Source: Pseudomonadota bacterium (GTDB lineage Bacteria; Desulfobacterota; JAPLJL01). Taken from it: a stretch of 38,761 bases of DNA. Positions 9,419 through 15,725 of this stretch are shown here, in pieces. Numbering within the stretch: the first letter of the stretch is position 1; the number at the start of each line of letters is the position of its first letter. Where the stretch lies: the NCBI GenBank assembly GCA_026388655.1, contig JAPLJI010000182.1:1-38761 (forward strand). Reading direction: 5' to 3'. Both the position numbers and the translations under genes were made by a program. The notes under the pieces were generated by a model, which was not told the origin of the DNA, ran no database searches, and saw nothing but the letters and a program-made list of their open reading frames with translations.

Positions 9419-12073
9419 TCAAATCTGGTTTCTTCGTTTTTTCCGCGGGCGTAACCAACTGAAAAACAAATAAAAAATCATAACTATTACCAATGCTAAT
9501 ATCGATCCCGGCTGGTCCGGTTCCAGAACCGTGCACCCTTCCGACTGGGGAAGAGGGTAGAGAATAGAAAACTCATACAACCTTTGGACTTCCCCGGAAA
9601 TGGAGATAACCAGCCCGGTCTGGTCCTCCCCGATCGGGCCGGTCTTCAGCAAGTCCTTATCGGTTTGAATCCTGATTCTCAATCTCTGTGTTTCCCGATC
9701 GTAATACCAGGCCAGATCCGAATTCACAAAATCCCCGAAAGATCTCTGGGGGGGAATAATTTCCTGGCGGCGGCTGCTCTTCAAAGTAGCCGGCAGGATC
9801 TTCCAACCTCCCCTCTGGCCATTCAGGGAAATCTTGGTTCCATCCCCGAGCTCGAATATAGCTTCGCCCAAAGGATTGGTGTTCTCCGGAAGATAAACCT
9901 GGACAAAAAGTTCTCCTTCGCTATACCCCCTGACCCAGGGCTCTTCTACCGGGGACAGGGTTTCAATTTCGGAATTGAGCAGGGGAAGCAGTGTCCCGGA
10001 ACGGACAAACAGGGGAATCCGGTCTAAGGGAGCCGGCACCGTGATCCAGCCGGGGCCGGTATAGCTTTGATCGGTCCAGAAATCGAACCAGGTGCCGTAA
10101 GGAAGGTATAACTCCCGCTCCCGGGCTCCGGCGAAAATCACCGGGGCGACCAGGATCTCCTCCCCCAGAAGATACTCGTAATTTAAACCGAAAACCTCCG
10201 GGTCATTCGGATACTGGAGGAAAAGATGCCGCATGACCGGCAATCCCGTTTCGTGCGCCCGGGCGGCATAGGCGTAAAGATAGGGAAAAAGCCGCGTATG
10301 CAATTGCGCGTATCGCCGGTAAAACTCCAGGGTCTCCTGGTCGGTATCAAAGGACCAGTTCCCTCCCGGCCAGCCGTGGTGGGTCCTCATAATCGGCGAA
10401 AGCGCCCCCAACTGAACCCAGCGGTAAAAAAGCTCGCGGTCGGTGTTGGCGGAAAAAACGGAATGGGACCCGCCGATATCCGGGCCAAACAGGGCGACCC
10501 CGGAAAACCCCAGGGAAAGGCCGGCGGGAATGACCGAGGGAAGCCCGTCCGCGATTTCCCATGAAGTGTTTTGATCACCCGGCCGGGCAATATCCACCAG
10601 CCCCTGGGATCCCAGATATCCTGATCGGCAGAAAAAGGCAAAATCGCCATCCGGGCGCTCTTTCGCTAAAACCGAGCGGACCGCGCTCTGGGCAAAAAAC
10701 GGGTAGCGATTATGAAGTTCCCGGCCGCTCCGGCCGTCAAAGAAGCTGGCGGTAACCGGGGTATACTCGCCGAAGTCAAACATCCAACCGTCAAAGCCCA
10801 AGTCGGTCCCCCGCTTGAGCAGGGACTGATACCAGCCCGTGGCGAAGGGATTGGTAAAATCGACCTGGGCCACCCGGCGGAACATCACCGGAAAAACAAA
10901 AGGCTCCCCGTCCGGACGCCCCGCCACCAGCTTTTGTTGAATCCCCTCGGCAAATTCCGGGGTTCCCTCGATCAGGTAAGGCCAGTAATAGGTCAGGAAG
11001 CGAAAACCGTCATGGTGAAGATCGGTAACCAATTGCTGAAGGTTGGGATACAAATCCTGGTTGACCGCATAACTTCCCTGCGGGGAAGCCCAATCCTCGG
11101 TCCAGATCACGCTGGAGGGGATCCGGTTAGCCCGGATCGTCTCGGCTCGTTTCCGGACCGCCGCTTCCCCCCCAATCGCGTCGTTCCAGGGAGCAAAAAC
11201 CCAGCGGGGGGGAAGCGGCGGTTTTCCGCCCGCCATCAGGGTGTAATTGGAAATGATCTTCCCCGGGTCCGGACCGTAAAAAAGGTAAAATCTCAAACCC
11301 GGCCCCTCGGTTTCCACCCGGAAAGCATCCGGGTAAACCGAAGTCAGTTCAAAATTGGTCCGGTACCCGGTATCCACGAGCAGGCCGTAACCGCGGTTGC
11401 TGAGGAAAAACGGAACCGGCCAGTAAGTGGCCAGCGAACCGTCCGGGAAAGGGGGAACATCCCGGCTTTCTCCCAGTCCCACCGGCCCTTCCTCGCTCCA
11501 GCAATAAACCGTCCGGCCCTTCTGGTCGACCCCGTTGAACCTTTCCCCGAACCCGAAAAAATGGTCGTCGTCATTCGAATTGAAGGCCAGACTGACCCGG
11601 TCAATGGGCGGACTCGGTCCCGGCGTGATTTCCACCCGGATGATATTGAGATCCACCACCCGGATCTGGATTTCGACCCCGTTCTGTCCCGGGCCGGCCG
11701 GGGGACAGGAAATCACCCAGGTATCCGCCCCGGACTGGTCCAGCCCGACCGCCGGGCAGCCGTACCAGTCCCGTTTTTCCTCCCGGCGCAAACCCTCCCA
11801 GGCAAACCCGGGATAAAGAAAGCCGGGGTCCTCCGGAATCGACGGGGCGGGCGAAAAAGCCATTCCCTGATAGCGCGGATCGGAAAAAGTCCTAACCACC
11901 CCGGACAGAAATACCCGCCCCAGTTGATCCTGAAATTCCAGTTGAAAGGGATTCGGGGAAACCTTGATCCGGACGAGGCCGGTGTCCAGAACCTGCGCTT
12001 TCCCCGGCGAAGCCAGAAATAGGAGCCCCACCGCCACAAAAACCGTGATTTTTAGATAATGCCCGCGGACCAT
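9419..12073 (-). CDS. exported, C-terminally anchored glycoside hydrolase family 31 protein
   Basis: N-terminal signal peptide; HFFGFGERFNGVDQKG; GFDGWMFDFGEYTP nucleophile region; RTHHGWPGGNW; C-terminal TM LALVIVMIFYLFFSWL followed by RPRKKRR. Confidence 0.9.
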   Translation of the reverse strand: MVRGHYLKITVFVAVGLLFLASPGKAQVLDTGLVRIKVSPNPFQLEFQDQLGRVFLSGVVRTFSDPRYQGMAFSPAPSIPEDPGFLYPGFAWEGLRREEKRDWYGCPAVGLDQSGADTWVISCPPAGPGQNGVEIQIRVVDLNIIRVEITPGPSPPIDRVSLAFNSNDDDHFFGFGERFNGVDQKGRTVYCWSEEGPVGLGESRDVPPFPDGSLATYWPVPFFLSNRGYGLLVDTGYRTNFELTSVYPDAFRVETEGPGLRFYLFYGPDPGKIISNYTLMAGGKPPLPPRWVFAPWNDAIGGEAAVRKRAETIRANRIPSSVIWTEDWASPQGSYAVNQDLYPNLQQLVTDLHHDGFRFLTYYWPYLIEGTPEFAEGIQQKLVAGRPDGEPFVFPVMFRRVAQVDFTNPFATGWYQSLLKRGTDLGFDGWMFDFGEYTPVTASFFDGRSGRELHNRYPFFAQSAVRSVLAKERPDGDFAFFCRSGYLGSQGLVDIARPGDQNTSWEIADGLPSVIPAGLSLGFSGVALFGPDIGGSHSVFSANTDRELFYRWVQLGALSPIMRTHHGWPGGNWSFDTDQETLEFYRRYAQLHTRLFPYLYAYAARAHETGLPVMRHLFLQYPNDPEVFGLNYEYLLGEEILVAPVIFAGARERELYLPYGTWFDFWTDQSYTGPGWITVPAPLDRIPLFVRSGTLLPLLNSEIETLSPVEEPWVRGYSEGELFVQVYLPENTNPLGEAIFELGDGTKISLNGQRGGWKILPATLKSSRRQEIIPPQRSFGDFVNSDLAWYYDRETQRLRIRIQTDKDLLKTGPIGEDQTGLVISISGEVQRLYEFSILYPLPQSEGCTVLEPDQPGSILALVIVMIFYLFFSWLRPRKKRRNQI

Positions 12074-12110: not shown

Positions 12111-13661
12111 TTGACGCTAATCACCATTAAATCTAGAATGACCTACAGGCGTGAGCAAATTAACATGGAAGCCCTCAATCGTTCACAGGTCCTGGAATAT
12201 CTCTCCGAAAAAAAGGAACTGGTCGGGAAAAACCTGGCCGGGGCCGACCTTTCCGGGATGGATCTCTCCCGCCAGAATTTCACCTCCTGTATCCTCGCGG
12301 GCGCCAACCTGACCCGCGCTAACCTGTCTCAGTCTATTCTGGAAAAGGTTGACCTCTCCGGCAGCCAGCTGGACCGGGCCATCCTGGCCAAGGCCATGAT
12401 CAGGAACGCCAACCTCAAGGGCTGTTCCGGGGACCAGGTGGATTTTTCCGAAGCCAACCTCAGCGGCGCCAACCTGAGCCTGGCCAATTTCAGTCACGTG
12501 AATTTTTTCCAGGCGGACCTGAGCCAGAGCACCCTGATCCAGGCCAAACTTTCCAACGCCGATCTCTCCGAAACCAATTTGAGCAACGCCAAGCTGACCC
12601 GGGCCAGCCTGGAAGCGGTTCTGATTAAAAACGGGGATTTAACCGGCGTGGACTTTCGCGGCGCCGTTCTGAAAAAGGTCAACCTGAACGGGGCCGATTT
12701 GAGCCGGGCCAATTTTGAGACCGCCGAGACCAGCAACATCCTGGCCCGCACCGCCTGTTTTTTCCAGGCCAACCTGGTGAAAAACGTTTTCTCGCCGGCC
12801 GACTTTACCGGTTCCGATTTCGAGTCGGCGAACCTGGAGGAGGCCAATCTCTCCCAGTCCCAGATCGCTTTCGCCAACTTTCGGGGCGCTTCTTTAAAGG
12901 CCGCCGATCTCCGGAAATGCAACCTGGCCAAGGCCGAGTTCGCCTATGCCGACCTTTCGGCCGGCAATCTTTCCGACAGCAACCTGAACTCGGCTAATCT
13001 CAAGGGCGCCGGGCTTGCCTCCGCCGTCCTCCGGGGCATCAAGGGCATCGGGGCCGATTTCAGCGGGATCGACGGGGTAAAATCCAACTTCATCAATGCC
13101 CAGCTCCAGCGTTCCAAATTCCAGAACGCCAAACTGATCGGGGCCGACCTGACCGGGGCCGATCTTGAGGGCGCGGATCTTTCCCATGTTTCCTTCGAAG
13201 GGGCCGAATTGCAGGGAGCCAACCTGAACCAGGCCTTCCTGCCTTCCACCCGCCGCCAGGTCGAATGCCCCTTCTGCGGAATCCAGCAGGACCAGGGGGA
13301 AATCTGCATCCATTGCAATCGTCCGCTGGTCCGGAAATTTCTGGGCCGGAGGCGTTCCCGCCTGGCCTACACCGCGTTTATCTTCAGCCTGTTCTCCGGC
13401 CCGGTCTTCCTGATTTTCCTTTCCCTCTGGCGTAGCCTGCTTTCCCACCACCCGCTCGGCCCCCGAATTCTGGCCCTGGGCCTGGCCGTCGCCCTGGCCG
13501 CCGCCCTGGCCGCTTTCTTCCTGGGATCCGCCGCGTTCATCCTGCTCCGGCTCCGGACGGAGCTGAAGGGAAATTCCTATGCCCTGGCCGCGCTCTTCCT
13601 GGCGATCCTCGTTTTCGCGCTCCTGGGGATAATCCTAAAGCTTCCCCTGTGGCTTACCTGA
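12111..13661 (+). CDS. pentapeptide-repeat protein with zinc ribbon and C-terminal transmembrane helices
   Basis: Long run of A(D/N)LSxAxL repeats, then CPFCGIQQDQGEICIHC (CX2C-X9-CX2C), then about three hydrophobic helices. True start may be ATG at 12165 (MEALNRSQ). Confidence 0.9.
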   Translation: MTLITIKSRMTYRREQINMEALNRSQVLEYLSEKKELVGKNLAGADLSGMDLSRQNFTSCILAGANLTRANLSQSILEKVDLSGSQLDRAILAKAMIRNANLKGCSGDQVDFSEANLSGANLSLANFSHVNFFQADLSQSTLIQAKLSNADLSETNLSNAKLTRASLEAVLIKNGDLTGVDFRGAVLKKVNLNGADLSRANFETAETSNILARTACFFQANLVKNVFSPADFTGSDFESANLEEANLSQSQIAFANFRGASLKAADLRKCNLAKAEFAYADLSAGNLSDSNLNSANLKGAGLASAVLRGIKGIGADFSGIDGVKSNFINAQLQRSKFQNAKLIGADLTGADLEGADLSHVSFEGAELQGANLNQAFLPSTRRQVECPFCGIQQDQGEICIHCNRPLVRKFLGRRRSRLAYTAFIFSLFSGPVFLIFLSLWRSLLSHHPLGPRILALGLAVALAAALAAFFLGSAAFILLRLRTELKGNSYALAALFLAILVFALLGIILKLPLWLT

Positions 13662-15283
13662 TCCTGAAAGAAGCCTCGGATACCTATCAGATGTTCCCGA
13701 TCACGGGAGCGGAGTTTATTATCGGCCGGCTTCCCGAAAACCATCTCTGCCTTCCCGAGATCGCGGTTTCCCGGAAACACTGTCGGATTTATCGGGAGTT
13801 GAACGCCTTCCACCTGGCTGACCTGGACAGCTTGAACGGCACCACCCTGAACGGGGAAAAGGTTAAGTCGGCCCGGCTCCGGGACGGCGACGTAATCCAA
13901 ATCGGCAATAGCATCTTGATTTTTCACCACCCCGAGGAACCGCCTTCCCGGCCGGGACCGGAGCCGAAACCCTCGCCCGCGCCCCCGCCCCCGCCGTGGG
14001 GGGAAAAATCCGCCCCCGATCCCGATCTCGACTGGGCGGAAATCGCCCGCCGGGTCGAGGAGATGAGGCCCGACGATTCCAAGCTCTTGAAACCGGAGTT
14101 CCGAAATTTCCACCTTCTCCGCGATCTCTGCCGGGTGATTATCCAGGCCAACTCGGAAGAAGACCTCCTGGAGGCGGCCATGGACTGCATCTCCCGGGCC
14201 TTTTCCTTTCAGGTGGCGGGCATCTTCCTCCGCGATGCCAAGGCGAAAGATCGGCTCGTTCCGAAATTGATCCTGGGAACCAACCCCAGGAACCCGGAGA
14301 TCTCCACCACCATCCTCAAGTATGCCGGGGAGAAAAACCTGGTTCTGCTTTCCACCGACGCCCGCACCGATCCCCGCCTGATCAGCGGGGATTCGATTCC
14401 CGAGCTCGGGATCCACTCCGCCCTGGCCTCCCCCCTCTGGGACGGGGAGGAAAATTTCGGGGTAATCTATCTCTCCACCCGCAAACCGGAATGCAGTTAC
14501 CGGGAAATCGACCTGGAACTCCTCTCCGCCCTGGCCAACCTGGTCGCCCTGGGAATTCGCAAGCTCAAGCTCCGGGAAGGAATGGAAAAAGAAAAGCTTC
14601 TCCGCTCCCATCTCGAGCACTACCATTCCCCGGAGGTAATCGATCTGATCATGAAGCAGGCCCGCGACTCGGAAGGCAAGATCCCGGCCACGGTCCGGAA
14701 TATCACCATTCTCTTCGCCGATATCAAGAACTTCACCACCCTCTCGGAAAAGCTTTCCCCCCCGGAGATCGCCGAGCTGCTCAACGAATTCTTTGCCTAT
14801 TCCACCGAGGCCATCTTCCATCACCGGGGCTCCTTGAATAAGTTCCTGGGCGATGGGCTCATGGCTATTTTCGGGGCCCCCCTGCCCCTGGAAAACCACG
14901 CGGAATCGGCGGTGCGGGCCGCGCTCCAGCTCATCCAGGAAACCCAGAGCTATTGTCTCAAGCTTCCCGTTTCCAAACGCTTCGCGATCAAGGTCGGGAT
15001 CAACACGGGGGAAGTCGTGGTGGGATCATTCGGCAACCCCAAGCGGATGGAATACACCGCCCTCGGCGACGAGGTGAATACCGCTTCCCGGCTGGAAAGC
15101 ACCGCGGCGGCCAGTCAGATCCTGATCAGTGAGCAAACCCAGCGGATGGTCCAGGATCTCTTTCCCACCCGGGATATCGGCTACATTCCCCTCCGGGGCA
15201 AGGCCCGCCGGATCAAGGTTTACGAGGTCCTGGCCGGGACCGGCCAGCCCGAAAATCTCTCCGAACGCAAATACGGGGAATAG
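13649..15283 (+). CDS. FHA-GAF-class III adenylate cyclase, GTG start
   Basis: FHA: IIGRLPEN...VSRKHCRIYRE...LDSLNGTTLNG; Pro-rich linker; GAF region; cyclase: ITILFADIKNFTTLSE, GSLNKFLGDGLMAIFGAP, EYTALGDEVNTASRLES. Confidence 0.93.
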   Translation: MAYLILKEASDTYQMFPITGAEFIIGRLPENHLCLPEIAVSRKHCRIYRELNAFHLADLDSLNGTTLNGEKVKSARLRDGDVIQIGNSILIFHHPEEPPSRPGPEPKPSPAPPPPPWGEKSAPDPDLDWAEIARRVEEMRPDDSKLLKPEFRNFHLLRDLCRVIIQANSEEDLLEAAMDCISRAFSFQVAGIFLRDAKAKDRLVPKLILGTNPRNPEISTTILKYAGEKNLVLLSTDARTDPRLISGDSIPELGIHSALASPLWDGEENFGVIYLSTRKPECSYREIDLELLSALANLVALGIRKLKLREGMEKEKLLRSHLEHYHSPEVIDLIMKQARDSEGKIPATVRNITILFADIKNFTTLSEKLSPPEIAELLNEFFAYSTEAIFHHRGSLNKFLGDGLMAIFGAPLPLENHAESAVRAALQLIQETQSYCLKLPVSKRFAIKVGINTGEVVVGSFGNPKRMEYTALGDEVNTASRLESTAAASQILISEQTQRMVQDLFPTRDIGYIPLRGKARRIKVYEVLAGTGQPENLSERKYGE

Positions 15284-15311: not shown

Positions 15312-15725
15312 TTATTCAAATAATTCCGTGATCCGGCGGAAAAGCTCCTCCCGGATTTCGCGGAACTTAGCCCTTACTTCTTCTTCCGTTTTTTCCCAGC
15401 CCGGGTCGGGCAGAGGCCAGTGCAGTTGCCTGACTGCTCCGGGAACCACGGGACAATTCCCCTCCTCATTCATACAGAGAGTTACCACCAGGTCCACCCG
15501 ATCCATCGGGATTTCTTTCAACGTCTTGGAATATTGGCGGGATATGTCAATCCCCGCTTCCGCCATTATCTCCACCGCGATCGGGTTGACCTGGAAGGTC
15601 GGGGCCAGTCCGGCGCTGAAGACCTCCATCCCGGGCGGGGCCAGTTTCCGGGCGATCCCCTCCGCCACCTGGCTCCGGGCCATGTTGCCCAGACAAACGA
15701 AAAGAATTCCTTTTCGGGGTGTCAT
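15312..15725 (-). CDS. arsC: low-molecular-weight phosphatase-fold arsenate reductase (thioredoxin type)
   Basis: ILFVCLGNMARSQVAEG P-loop plus VVTLCMNEEGNCPVVPG second and third Cys. Confidence 0.85.
   Translation of the reverse strand: MTPRKGILFVCLGNMARSQVAEGIARKLAPPGMEVFSAGLAPTFQVNPIAVEIMAEAGIDISRQYSKTLKEIPMDRVDLVVTLCMNEEGNCPVVPGAVRQLHWPLPDPGWEKTEEEVRAKFREIREELFRRITELFE

Follow-up and report, generated by a model that had tools for sequence, protein, structure and literature searches.

A gene pair for a predicted pentapeptide-repeat/zinc-ribbon membrane protein and an FHA-GAF-cyclase, conserved in two genera of one bacterial phylum

Why should a gene for a membrane protein with a long pentapeptide repeat share its last codons with the start of a cyclase gene? 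The window analysed here (the whole stretch of DNA, 38,761 nucleotides) contains two co-directional, overlapping open reading frames on the forward strand, one from 12111 or 12165 to 13661 and one from 13649 to 15283 (Table 1). The original prediction, made from the letters of the DNA, took them for a translationally coupled, membrane-tethered cAMP module with the β-helix as a scaffold. Both reading frames, their stops and the 13-nt overlap are present as predicted. Since a divergent GH31 gene lies on one side and a convergent low-molecular-weight (LMW) phosphatase gene on the other, the pair forms a two-gene unit. The start of gene 1 has to be revised, however. The TTG codon at 12111 that had been proposed is an unlikely start because it is the first triplet of a promoter-like match and thus falls within its −35-like hexamer, TTGACG, and because the gene 1 protein of the congener G001, which is also 498 aa long, begins with MEALNRSQ at the codon that corresponds to ATG 12165; the latter codon is therefore preferred. 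The region contains two such promoter-like matches against 0.6 expected. The overlap is kept in three of three congeners, and within this genus both genes are under purifying selection (dN ≈0.11, dS ≈0.5–0.6). In a second genus the genes do not overlap but are ≈91 nt apart (G032, with the ATG of MPNLLLKEK taken as start). Translational coupling through the overlap, as predicted, is thus plausible for a single genus and is not a property of the pair as such.

Table 1 Features of the gene pair and its neighbours (positions in the window)
Feature	Position	Strand	Basis or remark
GH31 gene	9419-12073	minus	Divergent neighbour of gene 1
Promoter-like match TTGACG-17-TAGAAT, 10/12	12111-12139	plus	Consensus match only
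Gene 1, pentapeptide-repeat/zinc-ribbon/3-TM protein, 498 aa	12165-13661	plus	ATG start
Uninterrupted pentapeptide β-helix, residues ~29-359, ~67 repeats (~17 coils)	12249-13241	plus	Pfam, register count
CX2C-X9-CX2C putative zinc ribbon (C368, C371, C381, C384)	13266-13316	plus	Four Cys invariant in 5/5 homologues
Three hydrophobic helices, residues ~400-423, 430-464, 467-498	13362-13658	plus	Hydropathy in homologues; low-confidence model
13-nt overlap, gene 1 stop (TGA)/gene 2 start (GTG)	13649-13661	plus	Same length in G000, G001, G002
Gene 2, FHA-GAF-class IIIb nucleotide cyclase, 544 aa, no TM	13649-15283	plus	GTG start; Pfam, alignments, hydropathy
FHA domain, pThr-binding residues R27, S41, H44, N63, G64, N68	13718-13906	plus	Pfam, alignment
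GAF domain, residues ~170-304	14156-14560	plus	Pfam
Class III cyclase domain: metal Asp358 and Asp402, Lys398, Thr470, Asn477, Arg481	14693-15223	plus	Pfam, alignment with P. aeruginosa CyaB and Spirulina CyaC
LMW phosphatase gene	15312-15725	minus	Convergent neighbour of gene 2

The architecture foreseen for gene 1, a pentapeptide β-helix followed by a cysteine ribbon and about three transmembrane helices, was borne out by Pfam, by the invariant cysteines and by hydropathy. The pentapeptide domain (PF00805) is matched with E = 6e-69, and its register is unbroken over ≈330 residues, with 60 positions fitting one frame and 0–6 fitting each of the other four. AlphaFold2, run on a two-row alignment, gave a confident model only for residues 1–≈140, i.e. 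the N-terminal coils, and this part matches solved pentapeptide proteins in a fold comparison. The ribbon cysteines lie in CPFC…CIHC and presumably bind zinc; no Pfam zinc-ribbon model scored above its cut-off on gene 1. Hydropathy picks out three segments in gene 1 and finds none in gene 2, and the transmembrane part corresponds to no known membrane domain in Pfam (a DUF4190-like domain was considered). A basic stretch, RKFLGRRRSR, precedes the first transmembrane helix and by the positive-inside rule would place the rod on the cytosolic side, less clearly so in the second genus.

Gene 2 likewise has the predicted combination of FHA (4e-19), GAF (GAF_3, 3e-10) and class III cyclase (Guanylate_cyc, 5e-33) domains in Pfam. 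Among seven aligned family members the catalytic residues D358, K398, D402, T470, N477 and R481 are invariant, as are G26, R27, S41, H44, N63, G64 and N68 of the FHA domain, in which the GR, SxxH and NG motifs are all present. The nearest solved relatives are of the GarA type for the FHA domain, which is predicted to dock phospho-threonine, and P. aeruginosa CyaB for the cyclase. Lys398 and Thr470 align with the Lys/Thr of CyaB and Spirulina CyaC, and this combination, with Thr replacing Asp, is the mark of class IIIb adenylate cyclases. By its signature gene 2 is thus probably an adenylate-type class IIIb cyclase with cAMP as the product. The AlphaFold2 model of the cyclase, again from a two-row alignment, reached a pLDDT of 36.

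Is this pairing an accident of one genome? A search with the cyclase covered 59 relatives, and inspection of the flanks located gene 1 upstream of the cyclase in G001, in G002 and in G032, a member of a different family; G068 joined them when the C-terminal domain of gene 1 (143 residues) served as query. Run against 396 genomes of the phylum, a profile of this zinc-ribbon/3-TM domain matched exactly these five, which belong to two genera assigned to different families, and the next gene downstream was an FHA-GAF-cyclase in all five, counting that of G001, whose contig ends after 145 residues of the cyclase. The adjacency that the original prediction suggested looking for is therefore conserved in all five genomes with the partner's C-terminal domain, and among the 396 genomes this domain was never found away from a cyclase. 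Four further C-terminal-domain matches to the single sequence (G214, G289, G322 and G384; E 2e-4 to 8e-4) were rejected as chance zinc-ribbon or transmembrane similarity, because they are without pentapeptide repeats and were all absent from the profile search at 1e-5. No plasmid matched the C-terminal domain, plasmid matches to the cyclase were confined to its catalytic domain or ran from GAF to cyclase, and a contig scan with the cyclase as sole query returned the known congener only. Searches by class gave one genus each, so sampling is thin.

One alternative is that the two genes share a transcript without sharing a function, gene 1 being a neutral operon neighbour that was kept by descent or co-transferred. 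The narrow distribution (five genomes, two genera) and the many cyclase relatives without the partner would fit this explanation. Yet the genes are only ≈30% (gene 1) and 43% (gene 2) identical between the genera, and the flanks comprise GH31, DAG-kinase-like (DAGK), LMW phosphatase and PfkB genes in the source genus and LpxC-like and CarD genes, with PIN-TRAM in G068, in the second. The pair remains adjacent and co-directional although the other synteny is lost, and thus behaves as a retained unit and not as the remnant of a long syntenic stretch; together with the exclusive linkage of the C-terminal domain, this makes a neutral neighbour unlikely in our view. That the pair is kept together in two distant lineages amid changed surroundings suggests one signalling unit. 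In a GatA comparison the second genus was the top match outside the source genus, by a very narrow margin. In both loci of the second genus (L052, 258–5301; L024, 8641–12323) a CarD-type regulator gene follows the pair in the same direction, and in G068 a PIN-TRAM gene is present as well.

The cyclase family is considerably broader than the pair. Counted from full-length profile matches that span FHA to cyclase, FHA-GAF-cyclases occur in ≈21 of 396 phylum genomes, and in ≈16 of these no pentapeptide gene is present in the readable flanks, some of which end at contig ends. The architecture is thus commoner without the partner, which indicates a lineage-specific addition and not an obligate subunit. 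A maximum-likelihood tree, in which G000 deviates in composition and several rows have long branches, unites the paired cyclases in a single clade (support 94/91; present in 94% of bootstrap trees), and a single change suffices to explain the distribution of the partner; most simply, an already existing cyclase family acquired the partner one time. Unlinked homologues, which would have spoken against the original prediction, are therefore common in the cyclase family at large, whereas the zinc-ribbon/TM pentapeptide family was never found unlinked. The neighbours of some unpaired relatives connect them with Ser/Thr phosphorylation. G002, one of the genomes with the pair, encodes a second FHA-GAF-cyclase, and two genes upstream of this copy lies a Ser/Thr kinase-PEGA gene (L054, contig C23, 4225–9191); in G349 a PP2C phosphatase gene is located directly upstream of an FHA-GAF-cyclase (L070, 3192–3947). 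Inspection by eye placed the FHA-GAF-cyclases of L099 and L100 (G386 and G311) near MglA-like small GTPase genes, a hint that this family may be connected with polarity or motility.

Ser/Thr kinase and CRP/cNMP-binding genes, which the original prediction had suggested looking for near homologous loci, are found neither beside the pair nor elsewhere on the contig; they occur elsewhere in the genome or near the unpaired relatives. The source genome encodes four Ser/Thr kinases, 11 cNMP-binding domains and two PF00211 cyclases. The other of these two is a CHASE2-cyclase, and its gene is followed by genes for a TPR protein that carries two cNMP-binding domains, for a GAF-GAF-HD protein and for another cNMP-binding protein (L053, contig C144, 4810–10844), a candidate for a self-contained cyclic-nucleotide operon. 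A second pentapeptide gene lies on contig C113, separate from the pair.

In a further explanation gene 1 is a target and not a scaffold: the FHA domain would bind a phospho-threonine of the gene 1 protein, or cAMP signalling would control its membrane function. An FHA domain that by its residues is an intact phospho-Thr reader, the Ser/Thr kinases of the genome and the fusion of pentapeptide repeats to Ser/Thr kinases in cyanobacteria (SpkB; PMC2176072) are all compatible with this. However, informal inspection of gene 1 revealed no conserved tail with Thr, and nothing specific favours a target over a scaffold, so that we regard this role, too, as doubtful.

The explanation that we favour, and to which we give an even chance, is a two-gene operon in which a soluble cyclase is positioned or informed by a membrane rod. 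The gene 1 protein would be anchored in the inner membrane by its three C-terminal helices and would expose the zinc ribbon and a rod of ≈17 β-helix coils to the cytosol. The gene 2 protein would be an adenylate cyclase of class IIIb, soluble and dimeric, with a GAF domain that may sense a small ligand and an FHA domain that may dock a phospho-threonine provided by a Hanks-type kinase of the cell. The rod, presumably in physical contact with the cyclase, would recruit or position it at the membrane or relay a membrane signal, like the built-in anchor of other class III cyclases, and the cAMP formed would act on the cell's CRP/cNMP-binding proteins. The linkage, which is exclusive and retained, the single paired clade, the overlap in congeners, the invariant catalytic and FHA residues and the Lys/Thr pair matching CyaB and CyaC argue for such an operon, and so do the kinases and cNMP domains of the genome and the kinase-PEGA and PP2C genes near unpaired relatives. 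On the other hand, most FHA-GAF-cyclases of the phylum do without the partner, which must be dispensable for that architecture; moreover, the partner is restricted to two genera, the second has no overlap, no kinase or cNMP gene is adjacent and the cyclase model is poor. Of the membrane cAMP module as originally predicted, the adjacency, the architecture, the adenylate-type signature and the confinement of membrane segments to gene 1 hold; as a description of the cyclase family, which is usually unpartnered, it does not. A more specific version, which we consider improbable, makes gene 1 a receptor or transducer subunit in trans, so that the pair would be a split receptor cyclase with the β-helix conducting a membrane or a metal/redox signal to a phospho-Thr-gated cyclase. 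Highly improbable, finally, is that gene 1 mimics DNA or modulates gyrase in the manner of Qnr or MfpA, without relation to the cyclase, since the sequence and fold matches to Qnr, MfpA and HetL reflect the common repeat, the curated cut-offs are far off (118 vs 240 bits for Qnr, 69 vs 360 for MfpA), and those proteins lack a membrane segment and a zinc ribbon and have shorter rods than gene 1.

Every domain of the pair is already known, and the pairing itself appears undescribed: the original prediction knew of no named system of this kind, and no paper was found in which a pentapeptide/zinc-ribbon/TM protein is the partner of a cyclase. With HetL, Qnr and MfpA (reviewed in PMC8145042) gene 1 has in common the repeat and the predicted right-handed quadrilateral β-helix, but it differs by the C-terminal zinc ribbon, the three transmembrane helices and a single rod of ≈17 coils. 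Most pentapeptide repeat proteins have no known function (PMC8145042), and the retained link to an enzyme of clear biochemistry provides a directly testable function for this branch. Pentapeptide repeats are also coupled to a signalling enzyme in the SpkB-type Ser/Thr kinases of cyanobacteria (PMC2176072, PMC1262709), where they are fused to the kinase, whereas here they belong to a separate membrane protein beside a cyclase. Gene 2 resembles the class IIIb adenylate cyclases P. aeruginosa CyaB and Spirulina CyaC in its core, with both metal Asp, Lys/Thr and Asn/Arg; in contrast to these types, its sensor is FHA-GAF, it has no membrane segment, and the membrane part is a separate protein. For class III cyclases with a 6TM membrane anchor of their own, this integral anchor has been argued to act as a receptor (PMC4821796). 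A cyclase and a membrane module are common to those enzymes and to the pair, but here the two are associated by gene linkage, and the anchor is encoded by a separate gene and consists of three transmembrane helices, a zinc ribbon and a β-helix. The retained link also raises the question of whether a class III cyclase can use a membrane module that has a gene of its own.
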